Of a DNA stretch of 64,000 nt, positions 46,039 through 62,729 are shown piece by piece. A program made the position numbers and the translations under genes. The notes beneath the pieces are model-generated. The model was not told the origin of the DNA and did not search any database. It was given only the letters and a program-made list of their open reading frames with translations. Origin of the DNA: Deltaproteobacteria bacterium. GTDB taxonomy: Bacteria; Desulfobacterota_D; UBA1144; Nemesobacterales; UBA2774. Location of the stretch: NCBI GenBank assembly GCA_040223695.1, contig JAVKFU010000018.1, forward strand, positions 372,001 to 436,000, read 5' to 3'. The stretch's first letter is position 1. Every line of letters begins with the position of its first letter.

Positions 46039-46275
46039 AGACTTTTTCAGAGAATTGCAGATGGCGCAAGTTCGCTACTATGATTTACTTCCTGCACCCG
46101 CCAGCGAATCACCTTAAATAATTCCCTTCTTATCCCACATCAGTATTTTTGTAAGTTTCTCGGAATAGTCGTCAGTTCTCACGACCTTCGTTGGCATCCC
46201 GGTTTTTACATCTGGCTAAACATAAAATTTAATTATTCGGGGCAATAAACTTGATAAACTGACTACAGTGAATGC

Positions 46276-46291
46276 TGTTGAATATTCAACA
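46276..46291. promoter_or_regulatory. Perfect 16-bp palindrome, candidate enhancer (UAS) site
   Basis: TGTTGAATATTCAACA is fully self-complementary. Its centre lies about 120 bp upstream of the transcription start expected from the sigma-54 promoter at 46378-46393, the usual distance for an enhancer-binding-protein dimer site. Confidence 0.5.
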
Positions 46292-46377
46292 ATTAAGTAA
46301 GCCCATTCATCCTCCCTATCTCGGAATATCTATCTAACTAACTGTGATTGAATAAATAATGCCAACATTTTCTTCAT

Positions 46378-46393
46378 TGGTATGGAGATTGCA
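46378..46393 (+). promoter_or_regulatory. Sigma-54 (-24/-12) promoter for the acidic lipoprotein
   Basis: TGGTATG-GAGA-TTGCA matches the sigma-54 consensus TGGCACG-N4-TTGC with GG and GC exactly 10 bases apart. The expected start is near 46404, about 50 bases before the gene at 46457. Confidence 0.6.
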
Positions 46394-46456
46394 TTGTTTA
46401 AGTGTAAAGAGCGCTGCTCTAAAATTACACATTGATCAAGGAGGTCAGATTTAAAA

Positions 46457-47272
46457 ATGTACAAGGTTAAAAGGAGTTATAGCAAATTGTCGGAAATTAA
46501 GTTTTTTATGCTTCTTTCGATTTTCGCGTTCACCATGGGGTTGGTTGGGTGCAATATTGAGAAAGAGGAAGAAGGTGAATTGCCGGATGTAGATGTTGAG
46601 GCGGATTCAGGAAACCTGCCGGACTATGAAGTAGTTAAAAAAGAAGAAGGCGAGCTGCCTGACGTGGATGTAGATGTTGATGAGGGTACGCTTCCTGACT
46701 ACGATGTCGAACTGCCGGATGTGGATGTCGGGGTTACAAAAAGAACGGTTAAAGTGCCTAAAGTGATTGTTGTTATGGAAGAGGAAGAAGTACAAGTACC
46801 GTACATAGATATTGATATGCCCGGCGATAATGATGCCGACGATATCGATGACTATAATGATGAAATAGATGATGATAATGTTACGGACGATGATTATGAC
46901 AACACTGATGACGTTAATGTTGGAGAGGATGATGATAAGAGGGATGATAACGATAAGACCGAAAAAACTCTTGTAGTTGAAGTAGAGGTCCCCTCTCCGA
47001 ATTACGATGTCGAAATTGATAAAATTTATCTTGTAAAGGATAGATATATTGTGCTGGCGCAGCTTGAAAAAGGCGATGACGCGGATGAGGAAATACAAAA
47101 AACGGTGAGGATATCCGACCGTGTGGTTTTAAGAGGACCGGATTTAGACGTTCGGTACTATGTAATAGGCGGCAGACCTGAAGGAAGCCACAACGAGCAG
47201 TATAGTTTCATTGAAAGTGAAGACGAAATAGAGGGTAAACTGGAAAACGGCAAGGTTTTATGGGAAGACTAA
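46457..47272 (+). CDS. Acidic repeat lipoprotein of unknown function
   Basis: 271 residues. The signal ends in the lipobox 'GLVGC' with Cys32. Then come imperfect repeats of 'EEGELPDVDV' and 'LPDYEV/LPDYDV' (residues 36-92), a strongly acidic segment (about 122-168, mostly Asp and Asn), and a C-terminal beta-rich region ('IDKIYLVKDRYIVLAQLEKG', 'RISDRVVLRGPDLDVRYYVI'). Such Asp-rich runs often bind calcium or other cations, but no EF-hand loop is clear. I recognise no family. It has its own sigma-54 promoter and a strong terminator downstream, so it is a single unit. Confidence 0.75.
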   Translation: MYKVKRSYSKLSEIKFFMLLSIFAFTMGLVGCNIEKEEEGELPDVDVEADSGNLPDYEVVKKEEGELPDVDVDVDEGTLPDYDVELPDVDVGVTKRTVKVPKVIVVMEEEEVQVPYIDIDMPGDNDADDIDDYNDEIDDDNVTDDDYDNTDDVNVGEDDDKRDDNDKTEKTLVVEVEVPSPNYDVEIDKIYLVKDRYIVLAQLEKGDDADEEIQKTVRISDRVVLRGPDLDVRYYVIGGRPEGSHNEQYSFIESEDEIEGKLENGKVLWED

Positions 47273-47344
47273 ACATACCAACATATTACGTATTTAAATT
47301 GTAATAGCAGCTAATTTTATCACTCTTTGTTTTGGTCAGTCTAT

Positions 47345-47380
47345 AAGAAAGCCCGCTAATACGGGCTTTCTTATTTTAAT
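47345..47380. terminator. Rho-independent terminator (bidirectional)
   Basis: A perfect 11-bp stem (AAGAAAGCCCG / CGGGCTTTCTT) with a 6-nt loop at 47345-47372, followed by ATTTTAAT. It ends the acidic lipoprotein unit and has A/T runs on both sides. Confidence 0.88.
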
Positions 47381-47449: not shown

Positions 47450-47779
47450 ATGAGCAAAAAAAGTGATCTCAATAAAGAAATTGAAACCCTGAGGGAAGAC
47501 GTGGCAAAGCTGCGCACAGATCTGGCCAGCACCTCTAAAAAACTTGTAGATGTAGGGAAAGATCAAACGGCGTCTGTTACTACCGCCGCAAAAGCGAAAC
47601 TGCAGGCGGAGGCAGCTCATCTTATCACCGAATTGAATTCTGCTTTGGATAGCACACGCCACAGCAGTAAGAGAGCCGTTAATACAATAGAAAACAGGTT
47701 AACGGAAAGACCTTTTATGAGTGTTGCAGTAGCCCTTGTAGCCGGACTTATATGTGGGAAACTGACGGATAGAAATTAA
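47450..47779 (+). CDS. DUF883 (ElaB/YqjD-like) membrane-anchored protein
   Basis: 109 residues. A long amphipathic N-terminal coiled coil ('LNKEIETLREDVAKLRTDLA') is followed by a C-terminal transmembrane segment 'FMSVAVALVAGLICGKLTDR', the DUF883 plan. E. coli YqjD/ElaB are inner-membrane proteins that bind ribosomes in stationary phase. GAGGAG lies 6 bases before the ATG. It is a separate unit after the terminator, within the stress island. Confidence 0.8.
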   Translation: MSKKSDLNKEIETLREDVAKLRTDLASTSKKLVDVGKDQTASVTTAAKAKLQAEAAHLITELNSALDSTRHSSKRAVNTIENRLTERPFMSVAVALVAGLICGKLTDRN

Positions 47780-50818: not shown

Positions 50819-50834
50819 TGGCATGAATATTGCA
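50819..50834 (+). promoter_or_regulatory. Sigma-54 (-24/-12) promoter for the PA2169-type gene
   Basis: TGGCATG-AATA-TTGCA is one base off the sigma-54 consensus in the -24 box and exact in the -12 box, with GG and GC 10 bases apart. The predicted start near 50845 is about 34 bases upstream of the gene at 50879. A second AATATTGCA lies 38 bp upstream without its own GG. Confidence 0.65.
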
Positions 50835-50878: not shown

Positions 50879-51328
50879 ATGGCTATGAATAATGACGAAG
50901 TAATTTCGACGCTCAATGAGTTGATCGAAACCTGTAAAGACGGTGAGAATGGTTATCAAACCGCAGCGGAAAATATAGAGAACGGTGAGTATAAACAATT
51001 ATTCAATCAGTATTCGCAGCAACGCGCAAAGTTTGCTAACGAGCTTAAAGCGGAGGTTAGCCGTCTTGGAGGGGATCCTGAGGACTCCGGTAGTGTGGCC
51101 GGTTCTCTTCACAGGGGTTGGATGAATATTAAGTCGGCTGTATCGAGTAATGATTTGAGTGCCATTATATCGGAATGTGAAGAGGGCGAAGATGTTGCGC
51201 TAAAGAATTATGATGAGGCCTTAGAGAAGGGTTTGCCGGCCGATGTGCGCTCGGTAGTAAACACCCAGTATATCGAAGTCAAAAAAGCACATGACCATAT
51301 TCGTTCCCTGGAGAAAAAACTAGATTAA
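50879..51328 (+). CDS. PA2169-family four-helix-bundle (DUF2383/ferritin-like) protein
   Basis: 149 residues, almost all helical, without transmembrane segments: 'NDEVISTLNELIETCKDGEN', 'ENGEYKQLFNQYSQQRAKFA' and 'ISECEEGEDVALKNYDEALE' match the PA2169/DUF2383 ferritin-like fold. Such proteins are often induced under stress or in stationary phase, with unknown biochemistry. AAGGAGAT precedes the ATG. It has its own sigma-54 promoter, one of two in this island. Confidence 0.85.
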   Translation: MAMNNDEVISTLNELIETCKDGENGYQTAAENIENGEYKQLFNQYSQQRAKFANELKAEVSRLGGDPEDSGSVAGSLHRGWMNIKSAVSSNDLSAIISECEEGEDVALKNYDEALEKGLPADVRSVVNTQYIEVKKAHDHIRSLEKKLD

Positions 51329-51383: not shown

Positions 51384-51926
51384 ATGAGCGGGGCATTACA
51401 GAGCAAAAGCATTGCTATACTCGTTGCGGACGGCTTCGAGCAGGTGGAATTGACCGAACCCAAAAAAGCTCTTGAAGACGCGGGAGCAAAGACTGAAATC
51501 ATTTCTCCCGCGGAAGGAAAGGTCAAGGGCTGGAATCATGATGAGTGGGGGGATCAGTTTGAGGTGGACTTGAAACTCGCCTATGCGAGTGCGGAGGATT
51601 ATGACGCTCTTCTGCTTCCGGGCGGAGTGATGAACCCGGACAATCTCAGACGAAACCCGCAGGCTCTAAGTTTTGTTAAATCCTTTTTTGATTCCAATAA
51701 GCCGGTAGCAGCCATATGCCACGGTCCGTGGACCTTGATTGACTCAGGAGTGGTAAAAGGGAGAACTATGACCTCCTATCATTCCATACAGACTGATCTC
51801 AAAAACGCGGGTGCGGAATGGGTGGACGAGGAAGTCGTAGTGGACGGTAATTTAGTTACAAGCCGTAACCCTGACGATATACCCGCATTTAACAGTAAAA
51901 CTATTGAAGTGTTTTCTAAAAGATAA
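51384..51926 (+). CDS. DJ-1/PfpI family general stress protein
   Basis: 180 residues. The nucleophile elbow is 'VAAICHGPWTLID' with the conserved cysteine, preceded by 'ALLLPGGVMNPDNLRRNPQA', matching the PfpI/YraA/GSP18 branch. Members act as glyoxalases, deglycases or chaperones under stress; which one applies here is not decidable. AAGGGG lies 9 bases before the ATG. It follows the four-helix gene by 55 bp and may be transcribed from the same sigma-54 promoter. Last gene of the island. Confidence 0.92.
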   Translation: MSGALQSKSIAILVADGFEQVELTEPKKALEDAGAKTEIISPAEGKVKGWNHDEWGDQFEVDLKLAYASAEDYDALLLPGGVMNPDNLRRNPQALSFVKSFFDSNKPVAAICHGPWTLIDSGVVKGRTMTSYHSIQTDLKNAGAEWVDEEVVVDGNLVTSRNPDDIPAFNSKTIEVFSKR

Positions 51927-54878: not shown

Positions 54879-56108
54879 ATGCACAATCATAAGCGCTTAG
54901 GAGTGGTTTATCTGATCTTGATAGTCGCTTTCTCGTTCGGCACTGGCGATCGTGCTGTGGGTCACGGCTCTATGGAAACACCTGTTAGCCGTATATACAA
55001 CTGCTTCCTCGAAGGGCCCGAGAACCCGAAATCCAACGCTTGTATAGCGGCTGTGCAGGCGGGAGGCAAGCAGGCGCTCTATGACTGGAACGGGGTCAAT
55101 CAGGGGAACGCGAACGATATGCATCGCGAGATAATCCCGGACGGAAAACTTTGTAGTGCGGGTAAGGAGCTCTTCAAGGGTATGGACCTTGCGAGGGATG
55201 ACTGGCATACAACCGCTATTGCGCCCGACGGCGATGGTGATTTCGAATTCGTTTTTATCGCTACAGCCCCCCACAGCACGGAATATTTCAAGTTCTACGT
55301 CACAAGAGAAGGCTATGACCCGCTCAGCCCGTTGAAATGGTCGGATTTGGAAGACTCGCCTTTCTGCACCATAAACGATGTAAACCTTGAAAACGGCAGA
55401 TACAGGATGACTTGCCCGTTTCCTCAGGGGAAGACAGGCAATCATGTTATATATAGTATCTGGCAGAGGGACGACAGCCCGGAGGCGTTTTATACCTGTA
55501 TGGATGTGAGTTTCACAGGCGGTACTCCTGTTACGTGGAGGTCGCTCGGTCAGTTAAGGGCGCATCAGGACCTGGCTCCCGGCGATAAGGTCACCTTCAG
55601 ACTGTTCGACGATCAGTCGGGGGATGTGGAGTCTCATACGCTTGAGCTTACCCAGGGGCAGACGGGCGCAAACGAATGGCCGTTTTATCTTGCGGAGGAG
55701 GTGAATGCCGGCTCCTCTGTCGTCAGTATCGGAGTCCTGGATTCTGACGGAGCTATAAACCCTGTTATAAGCTCTCAGGACAATAACGTGTACGTCTCTT
55801 CGGACCTCGAGTTCTCGTTTCAGGTGGATATAGAGATGATGGACAACGGCGGGGGAGATGGAGATAACGGGGAATGCGACTGCGGCGCTCCCGGACCCGG
55901 ACCGGACCCAGGCCCTGATGCGGAGGCGGATTTCGTTTACCCCGACGGTATCGGGACTTACAGTGCCGGGACTGTGGTACTGGGGACTGACGGGAGCCGC
56001 TACGAGTGCAGGCCGTTTCCCAATTCGGGCTGGTGCAACCAGAGCGAGCTGTACTACGCGCCCGGGACGGGGCTTGCGTGGCAGGACGCGTGGATCGGGC
56101 TCGATTGA
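54879..56108 (+). CDS. Secreted chitin-active lytic polysaccharide monooxygenase (AA10) with GbpA-like and CBM modules
   Basis: 409 residues. The signal peptide ends before His29 ('DRAVG|HGSMETP'), giving the N-terminal histidine required for copper. The second histidine of the brace is His132 in 'TAPHSTEYFKFYVT'. The AA10 domain runs to about 215 ('YTCMDVSFTGG'). A GbpA-domain-2-like module follows (about 217-325), then a Pro/Gly/Asp linker, then a C-terminal chitin-binding module (about 345-409) with 'DGSRYECRPFPNSGWCN' and several tryptophans. The enzyme cleaves crystalline chitin oxidatively. It is monocistronic, with GGGGGG before the ATG. Confidence 0.93.
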   Translation: MHNHKRLGVVYLILIVAFSFGTGDRAVGHGSMETPVSRIYNCFLEGPENPKSNACIAAVQAGGKQALYDWNGVNQGNANDMHREIIPDGKLCSAGKELFKGMDLARDDWHTTAIAPDGDGDFEFVFIATAPHSTEYFKFYVTREGYDPLSPLKWSDLEDSPFCTINDVNLENGRYRMTCPFPQGKTGNHVIYSIWQRDDSPEAFYTCMDVSFTGGTPVTWRSLGQLRAHQDLAPGDKVTFRLFDDQSGDVESHTLELTQGQTGANEWPFYLAEEVNAGSSVVSIGVLDSDGAINPVISSQDNNVYVSSDLEFSFQVDIEMMDNGGGDGDNGECDCGAPGPGPDPGPDAEADFVYPDGIGTYSAGTVVLGTDGSRYECRPFPNSGWCNQSELYYAPGTGLAWQDAWIGLD

Positions 56109-60006: not shown

Positions 60007-61281
60007 TTGAACCTGAGTAAGCAGATAACGCTCGGCTACGCTTTAATGTTCTTTTTTATGATTCTAATAAGCGGTTTATCTATATATAGCATATACAATC
60101 TTGATAATACTGCCTCTAATATAACGGGCAGGTATAACACATTGTCAAGACTCCTTTCGGCTAAGGAAGAGGGGAAGCAGGGCATATTCGCAAACGAAAT
60201 GCTGCTTGAGTCGATAAGGATATCCGATAAGCAGATTCAGTATTCATATGTAATGATTTTTACCGTAGTCGGCGTCACTCTCCTGTTCGGCATTGTGCTC
60301 ACGGTGTTTATCCCCCGGATGATTACAAAACCTGTCCAGAAGCTTTTTAATGCGGCGGAATCGGTGAGTACCGGGGACTATTCCGTGCGGCTCCGGGATA
60401 TAAAAACGAGCAGTGAGATAAATACCCTTGTCAGAGCTTTCAATAATATGATGGATAACATAGACAGGAATAACCGCGAGCTTCAGGAAAAGAACGAGGA
60501 GATATTGAAGCTTCTCGAGACGACAAAGAGATTCAATGAGCGTCTGGAAACGGAAATAGCTCAGGCGACACGGGAGATTGAGGAAAAACACAAAGAGCTT
60601 GTGAAATCCGAAAAGCTCGCTACGATCGGCGAACTCGCTACAGGTGTGGCGCATGAAGTGAGGAATCCCCTTTCCGGTATCGGGCTTGCGCTCGAGCTTA
60701 TGAGGGATGAGACTAAAAATGAAGAGCACAGGCAGACAATGTCGGATATACTTCAGGAAATATCAAGGCTTGAGCGTATAGTTAAAGGACTCTTTCAGCT
60801 GGGCCACCCCAAGAGTCTCCAGCTTATTGAATGCACTCCGAATGATATAGTGGAACGGGCGCTTACCCTGATTAGTATGAAAGCGAAGGAAAAGGGAGTA
60901 TTGATAAAAAAAGAGCTCATGTGCGATAAGCATTTTTATGTGGACCATGAGCAGATAGAACAGGTCGTTTTAAATTTGCTTATAAACGGAATTGACGCAA
61001 CCGGGAGCTTCGGGGAAGTGAAAGTAATGACAAAAGGCCGTAACAGTTCTGTGCAAATTGTGGTTTCAGATACCGGATGCGGTTTTTCAGAGGAGGAGAT
61101 GGGAAAGATTCTTCAGCCGTTTTATTCGACCAAGGAGGCGGGCACAGGTCTCGGGCTTGCCATATCCAACAGGATAATTGAGGCTCACAGGGGTGTGCTT
61201 CGTATTTCAAGCCGGGTAGGGAAAGGCTCAACGTTTATTGTGGAGATTCCCAACAATCTGGAGAACGAGACTCAAGTATAG
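60007..61281 (+). CDS. Sensor histidine kinase (NtrB/ZraS-type)
   Basis: 424 residues from TTG 60007. Two transmembrane helices (about 10-32 and 78-103) enclose an unusually short periplasmic region of about 45 residues. A HAMP domain (~104-156) and a coiled coil follow, then the HisKA H box 'VAHEVRNPLSGIGLALELM' (His near 219), the N box 'EQVVLNLLINGIDAT', 'DTGCGFSEEEMGKILQPFYS' and the G2 box 'KEAGTGLGLAISNRIIEAH'. The sensed signal is unknown. It is 74 bp upstream of its likely cognate response regulator and the cstA gene. Confidence 0.94.
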   Translation: MNLSKQITLGYALMFFFMILISGLSIYSIYNLDNTASNITGRYNTLSRLLSAKEEGKQGIFANEMLLESIRISDKQIQYSYVMIFTVVGVTLLFGIVLTVFIPRMITKPVQKLFNAAESVSTGDYSVRLRDIKTSSEINTLVRAFNNMMDNIDRNNRELQEKNEEILKLLETTKRFNERLETEIAQATREIEEKHKELVKSEKLATIGELATGVAHEVRNPLSGIGLALELMRDETKNEEHRQTMSDILQEISRLERIVKGLFQLGHPKSLQLIECTPNDIVERALTLISMKAKEKGVLIKKELMCDKHFYVDHEQIEQVVLNLLINGIDATGSFGEVKVMTKGRNSSVQIVVSDTGCGFSEEEMGKILQPFYSTKEAGTGLGLAISNRIIEAHRGVLRISSRVGKGSTFIVEIPNNLENETQV

Positions 61282-61355
61282 TGCTTTCTAATGAAAAACC
61301 ACTATATATTAAAAACCTGTTTTTTGTGGAAATATAATATTATATAAAGGACTAA

Positions 61356-62729
61356 ATGAGCTCACTGATACTAATAATCGAAGATGAAAGGCTTCTTTGT
61401 AAGCAGCTGCGCAAGGCGCTTACTCAGGAGGGGTATTCTGTAATTACTTCTTTTGAGGGTGGCGAAGGGATCGAGATAGCCAAAAGGGAGAATCCCGATC
61501 TTGTTCTCCTGGACCTGAAACTGCCCGATACGGACGGCTTGAATGTGCTGAGAATTTTCTCGAACCTTGAACAGTCCCCGACAACCATAATGATGACTGC
61601 CCACGGAAGCGTAGAAGTTGCGGTAACCGCTATCAGAGTGGGGGCTTACGACTTCATTGAGAAACCCTTTCCACTGGATAAGCTCAAAGTAATGGTCAGG
61701 AATGCCCTCAGGACAAATATGCTGAAAAACAGTCTGAGCGCTGCTGCAATGAGAGCGCAGGAGAAGTACGGTTTTGATTCCCTAATAGGGGAGAGCACCT
61801 CAATAAAAGAAATAATCGGCCTTTTCAGGAAACTTACGGAGAGTGACCCGCGTACGATCTTGATTACCGGTGAGAGCGGGACGGGAAAGGGGCTTGCTTC
61901 AAAGGTGCTCCACTACAACGGTGCGAGAAGCCAGAGACCGTTCATCGAGATCAACTGTGCGGCGATTCCGGAAACTCTGCTGGAAAGCGAGTTGTTCGGC
62001 CATGAAGCGGGAGCGTTCACGGACGCGAAGAAGCTGAAGAAAGGAATACTTGAGCAGGCTGACGGCGGAACTGTGTTTCTCGATGAGATAGGAGACATGA
62101 GTCTTGCGCTCCAGGCAAAGCTTGTAAAGGCGGTTGAGGAGAGGTCTTTCAGAAGACTCGGGGGAACCAGGGATATAAAGGTCGACCTTTGCGTGATAGC
62201 GGCTACGAACCGCGACCTGAAGGTTTTGGTTAAACACGGCGAATTCCGGGAGGACCTGTATCACAGGTTAAACGTGATTAGCTTCGAGATGCCTGCTCTC
62301 AGAGACAGGAAGGAGGATCTCCCGCTTCTCACCGACTATTTTGTTTCCTACTTCAATACAGATTTGAACAAGAATATTTCCGAGATTCCGGAAGAAGTGA
62401 GGACGACTCTGTCAAATTACGACTGGCCGGGAAATGTCCGGGAACTAAGGAGTGCCATAGAACGGGCGATACTGCTCGGTGAAAACGGCGTGCTAAACCC
62501 GAAATATATAATGCTTGAAGACGGGGAAACCCTTCAGGTTCAGAACTCTGATGAAAAGATGATAATAGATGTCCCAATCGAGGACGCCTCTCTTTACAAA
62601 ATAGAAAAGAAGGTTATAACTAAGGCCTTGGATTTAAACGACTGGAACCAGACGAGAACAGCCGATATGCTTGGAATTACCCGGGAGGTTCTCCGTTACA
62701 GGATGAAGAAATGGGGGCTCTTGAGCTGA
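61356..62729 (+). CDS. Sigma-54-dependent response regulator (NtrC family)
   Basis: 457 residues. The receiver domain phospho-acceptor Asp is in 'DLVLLDLKLPDTDGLNVL' near residue 52. The AAA+ domain has Walker A 'ITGESGTGKGLASKVLHYNG', the sigma-54 contact loop 'AGAFTDAKKLKKG' (GAFTDA instead of GAFTGA) and 'ADGGTVFLDEIGDM'. The Fis-type HTH is at the end ('NQTRTADMLGITREVLRYRM'). It would activate sigma-54 promoters when phosphorylated by the kinase upstream; it is the only such activator in the window and cstA follows it. Confidence 0.95.
   Translation: MSSLILIIEDERLLCKQLRKALTQEGYSVITSFEGGEGIEIAKRENPDLVLLDLKLPDTDGLNVLRIFSNLEQSPTTIMMTAHGSVEVAVTAIRVGAYDFIEKPFPLDKLKVMVRNALRTNMLKNSLSAAAMRAQEKYGFDSLIGESTSIKEIIGLFRKLTESDPRTILITGESGTGKGLASKVLHYNGARSQRPFIEINCAAIPETLLESELFGHEAGAFTDAKKLKKGILEQADGGTVFLDEIGDMSLALQAKLVKAVEERSFRRLGGTRDIKVDLCVIAATNRDLKVLVKHGEFREDLYHRLNVISFEMPALRDRKEDLPLLTDYFVSYFNTDLNKNISEIPEEVRTTLSNYDWPGNVRELRSAIERAILLGENGVLNPKYIMLEDGETLQVQNSDEKMIIDVPIEDASLYKIEKKVITKALDLNDWNQTRTADMLGITREVLRYRMKKWGLLS

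Follow-up and report, generated by a model that had tools for sequence, protein, structure and literature searches.

The perfect 16-bp palindrome TGTTGAATATTCAACA upstream of an acidic lipoprotein gene in an uncultured Candidatus Dadabacteria genome in all likelihood serves as a docking site for a sigma-54 activator. The genome has some twenty to thirty predicted sites of this kind, which appear to co-activate cell-envelope and general-stress genes. We consider it quite likely that the palindrome is the UAS of a response-regulator-type activator of paralog group A, with the tandem binding, DNA looping and regulon of about 20-30 promoters that are proposed below.

The window, i.e. the whole 64-kb stretch of DNA that was analysed, belongs to a genome (G000) of 3.03 Mb in 23 contigs, which is 95.6% complete. 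Its features are listed in Table 1. The palindrome claimed by the sequence-only reading is indeed present, 102 bp 5' of the -24/-12 element TGGTATGGAGATTGCA. A transcription start is expected near 46404, some 12 bp beyond the GC of the -12 element. This places the palindrome centre about 120 bp upstream of the start, and the distance given in that reading thus stands. TGGTATGGAGATTGCA has GG and GC at the correct spacing and departs from TGGCACG-N4-TTGCW at two positions, both C to T. Its sigma-54 score ranks second in the window, behind that of the promoter TGGCATGAATATTGCA, which has only weak UAS-like sites upstream. A search for an IHF-like site between the UAS and the promoter gave only a match with two mismatches. 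Separately, a GTGTAA...TTACAC inverted repeat (46402-46432) lies about at the predicted start and is a possible 5' leader hairpin or operator.

The mature lipoprotein has a pI of about 4.05 and consists of 33% Asp and Glu. It has no match in Pfam or NCBIfam, and its description as an acidic lipoprotein without a recognised family therefore holds. The structure prediction has a pLDDT of 43. Elsewhere in the window, positions 54879-56108 encode a GbpA-like lytic polysaccharide monooxygenase (LPMO_10) with a GbpA_2 domain.

Table 1. Features of the window, in window coordinates.
Feature	Position	Strand	Basis
Weak upstream UAS half of the tandem, TGATAAACTGACTACA	46252..46267	.	Half-site match, pitch
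Main UAS, predicted activator-binding palindrome TGTTGAATATTCAACA	46276..46291	.	Sequence and genome-wide scan
Sigma-54 -24/-12 promoter TGGTATGGAGATTGCA	46378..46393	+	Pattern class with 64 genome matches vs 2 in reversed control
Shine-Dalgarno region AAGGAGGT	46440..46447	+	Read from sequence
Acidic lipoprotein gene, 271 aa, lipobox LVGC	46457..47272	+	ATG at 46457
Intrinsic-terminator-like hairpin closing the lipoprotein unit	47343..47374	+	13-bp stem, 6-nt loop, -19.8 kcal/mol, then TTTTAA
ElaB/YqjD-like (DUF883-type) gene	47450..47779	+	Weak NCBIfam PRK10132 and ElaB matches below cut-off; synteny with G035
Second sigma-54 promoter TGGCATGAATATTGCA, same gene cluster	50819..50834	+	Top sigma-54 score in window
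DUF2383 gene under promoter TGGCATGAATATTGCA	50879..51328	+	Pfam
DJ-1/PfpI gene, after the DUF2383 gene	51384..51926		Pfam
Histidine kinase (60007-61281) and sigma-54 activator (61356-62729), paralog group B	60007..62729	+	Profile searches, activator tree

TGTTGAATATTCAACA has no second copy in the window, even if three mismatches are allowed. Taken in isolation, without the genome context, a perfect 16-bp palindrome is not significant: 0.96 are expected per 64 kb and one was observed. The palindrome gains its significance from its genome-wide co-occurrence with sigma-54 promoters and from its conservation in relatives. The genome contains one copy of rpoN, and the pattern TGGYAYN5TTGCW has 64 matches as compared to two for the reversed pattern. 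Several near-copies of the palindrome (up to three mismatches) are located about 100-132 bp 5' of sigma-54 promoters. A genome scan for co-occurrence with -24/-12 promoters, which had been suggested as a check on the sequence-only reading, turned out to be clearly positive. TGT-N10-ACA is found at 20 of the 64 promoters (26 sites), whereas 300 dinucleotide shuffles gave a mean of 1.9 and a maximum of 8. The other half-site spacings in the range of 2 to 21 yielded 0-8 sites each.

The TGT-N10-ACA sites are positioned at -145 to -89, counted from the first base of the -24 element. Each of the six pairs that share a promoter has a pitch of exactly 24 bp. TGTTGAATATTCAACA has the second highest PWM score among all sigma-54 promoters of the genome. 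Exactly 24 bp 5' of it lies TGATAAACTGACTACA, which retains five of the six half-site bases of TGT-N10-ACA and has a PWM score of -0.5. A helical-phase signal in the UAS positions (period 11-11.5) was dropped as independent evidence because it is partly a product of the 24-bp pairs. At about two thirds of the sigma-54 promoters no full TGT-N10-ACA site is present, which implies that other activators operate in this genome, where 14 strong PF00158 sigma-54 activators are found. Also of note are the near-identical sigma-54 promoters TGGCACATTAGTTGCA at the end of contig C12 (L029) and the start of contig C15 (L034). They precede short repeated ORFs (...VVLPDGGDSLDIAGGKFIHKV...), possibly one repeated small-peptide gene split by the assembly.

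The arrangement is conserved beyond this genome. Among named relatives, Candidatus Dadabacteria SJ427 (G041) is the closest; it belongs to the same family, and its activator is 73% identical. In G035, which represents another genus of that family, a partial lipoprotein ortholog (57% identity over 71 aa) retains its ElaB-like neighbour. The ortholog's promoter TGGTATACATTTTGCA is preceded by TGTTGAATCGGAAACA at -123 and TGTATATTTTTCAACA at -99. This is a perfect 24-bp tandem, with a full TGT-N10-ACA site where our genome has the weak TGATAAACTGACTACA. A strict single-UAS pattern proved too narrow across the phylum (four matches in three genomes). The tandem pattern TGTN10ACA-N8-TGTN10ACA gave 27 sites in 58 genomes vs five control matches. 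Nearly all of the 27 sites are in families f1 and f2. The activator family is present in 23 of the 58 genomes, including nearly all f1 and f2 genomes. Some exact tandem matches (e.g. the G014 match, L187, and L197) lack an adjacent sigma-54 promoter and may be due to chance. As a separate observation, the genomes G015-G028 (family f7, genus g17) retain rpoN, and their sigma-54 promoter matches are no commoner than in the control.

A dyad-symmetric enhancer 80-150 bp upstream is thus recurrent in the genome and conserved in relatives. With both elements in place, the motif repeated genome-wide and the arrangement kept at the ortholog of another genus, the UAS/-24/-12 layout of an enhancer-dependent promoter read from this sequence is well founded. 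The palindrome could instead be a chance occurrence or the operator of an unrelated repressor that is adjacent to a sigma-54 promoter by coincidence, since about one such palindrome is expected in any 64 kb. However, the whole-genome excess at the right distance and the conservation in G035 make this explanation extremely improbable.

Three related kinase/activator pairs of our genome are candidates for binding the site: group A on contig C15 (C15:105070-107800), group B in the window and group C on contig C19. The window activator combines a PF00158 AAA+ sigma-54 interaction domain with a PF02954 Fis HTH. In the activator tree, A (together with its G035 and G041 counterparts), C, the f2 clade and B are separate. 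UAS-bearing sigma-54 promoters are found at the kinase/activator operons of our genome, SJ427, G035, G014 and six f2 genomes. They belong to group A, the f2 clade and G014, but not to group B, and are often shared with a divergent gene, e.g. a cupredoxin gene. In our genome, the third-ranked UAS precedes the group A kinase gene itself, whereas neither a sigma-54 promoter nor a UAS was found in front of the window pair.

Hence, the group A protein is the likeliest activator of the lipoprotein promoter, and the group B pair in the window is probably not responsible. Group A is the best candidate because A-type, but not B-type, operons carry the UAS and because TGTTGAAT-type sites occur near group A (C15:112857). 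Furthermore, the G035 lipoprotein ortholog is about 2.3 kb from a group A pair, whose promoter carries the motif. A real UAS and sigma-54 promoter served by the group B (61356-62729) or group C protein would be the main alternative. All three belong to the same overall family and resemble each other in their HTH regions, so the site could also be bound by B or C; LRYRMKK is present in the C-terminal HTH of both A and B. They also have the same type of sigma-54 contact loop, and a related tandem UAS (TGTGTA..TACACA) serves the sister of group B in f2. However, the group B operons have no UAS in any f1 genome examined, and the sites beside group C are different (TGTACGGATTCATACA, TGTTTCGTTTGATACA). 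Together with the TGTTGAAT-type sites and the position of the G035 lipoprotein, this makes control by B or C rather unlikely.

In all Dadabacterial A, B, C and f2 members examined, the sigma-54 contact loop is GAFTDA or GSFTDA, not GAFTGA. The loop-variant paralogs in our genome are 61356-62729 and the C15 and C19 copies (L098, L099, L100), and the remaining 11 activators have GAFTGA or GSFTGA. The same change in NorR (G266D) results in constitutive activity (PMC2941729), and GAFTDA occurs naturally in a Desulfovibrio activator (PMC4641369). As GAFTDA is naturally tolerated elsewhere, the missing canonical GAFTGA is compatible with membership in the bEBPs.

The genes behind the UAS-bearing promoters encode a Rieske/FAD reductase, BON and YHS proteins, a CsbD-DUF1328-DUF892 group, a cupredoxin with ChaB, LysM and OmpA proteins and a cytochrome c lipoprotein. 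Sensor kinases and small secreted acidic proteins are also among the products. The OsmC gene and an RpoD-like sigma factor gene have weaker UAS sites in front. Judged by annotation, this suggests a role in envelope or general stress. The C15:634880 gene, which has a strong tandem UAS, was taken for a lipoprotein paralog from its N-terminus; it actually encodes a cytochrome c lipoprotein. The genome has an unusually large number of sigma factors (27 PF04542 matches), about 11 of RpoD-like length and many ECF-like, and sigma-54 may therefore not be the only stress regulator. A sigma-54 promoter precedes the RpoD-like gene L028 (C9) and apparently also L016 (C2).

The following mechanism is proposed. 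A dimer of the response-regulator-type activator, presumably under phosphorylation control, would bind TGTTGAATATTCAACA via its Fis-type HTH, and a second dimer would occupy the weaker site 24 bp upstream, allowing the AAA+ ring to assemble. The DNA would then loop over about 100 bp toward the sigma-54 polymerase waiting at the promoter, and ATP hydrolysis would open this polymerase and switch on the lipoprotein gene. Besides the operon that encodes it, the group A activator would control about 20-30 further promoters, with an enrichment of envelope and general-stress genes.

A broader proposition, which we make tentatively and would not call probable, is that several Dadabacterial lineages run their general or envelope stress response through a sigma-54 cascade. 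GAFTDA/GSFTDA kinase-activator pairs would act on 24-bp tandem TGT-N10-ACA enhancers before CsbD, BON, ChaB, DUF892, OsmC-type and lipoprotein genes and at least one RpoD-like sigma factor gene, and would take the role that RpoS, SigB or EcfG has elsewhere. This would be a possible control route for Dadabacterial stress genes of the kind that are usually under those regulators. One palindrome thus leads to a testable regulon, with a likely activator and a site geometry, in a phylum that is mostly known through metagenome data. How activators assemble and contact sigma-54 could be tested directly on the 24-bp tandem enhancer and on the fixed GAFTDA/GSFTDA loop.

The mechanism is classical and the type of switch is well known. 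No paper on Dadabacteria and sigma-54 together was found in the literature searched, which was mostly without subscription papers, and the predicted Dadabacterial regulon is not described there. TGT-N10-ACA is the recognition sequence of NifA (PMC2820453; PMC6296734), and the NifA enhancer at nif promoters likewise precedes a -24/-12 promoter by about 100 bp. A NifA-type enhancer would therefore explain both the half-sites and their spacing. However, nifH has no match above cut-off in this 95.6% complete genome, and the genes behind the UAS-bearing promoters are of the envelope/stress type rather than nif genes. Activators A and B, the two that were run against the NifA model, have a receiver domain in place of the GAF domain and score only about 312-319 of 529 bits, far below the cut-off; the genome has activators of GAF/PAS type besides. 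With the fixed 24-bp tandem as a further difference, there is hardly any likelihood of a NifA system.

The sites of the QseEF/GlrR two-component system are TGTC-N10-GACA, and its targets (glmY, rpoE) are envelope-linked. That system also pairs a kinase with a receiver-domain sigma-54 activator and has TGT...ACA half-sites 10 bp apart. The Dadabacterial system differs in its targets and its loop motif, and the A/B activators score 291-306 of 763 bits with the GlrR model, far below the NCBIfam cut-off. The A and B activators have the receiver - AAA+ - Fis HTH architecture of the AtoC, NtrC and PEP-CTERM response regulators, which are among their top-scoring NCBIfam models. Neither reaches the cut-off of any NCBIfam equivalog (AtoC 413-430 of 714, NtrC 354-373 of 559, PEP 360-374 of 503). 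The sigma-54 regulome of Desulfovibrio vulgaris resembles the Dadabacterial one in that TGT/ACA motifs go with many of its activators, in its stress and envelope targets and in the presence of a GAFTDA activator (PMC4641369). The half-site spacings reported for it are 9, 11 or 12 bp, however, and the phylum, the activators and the regulon are different.
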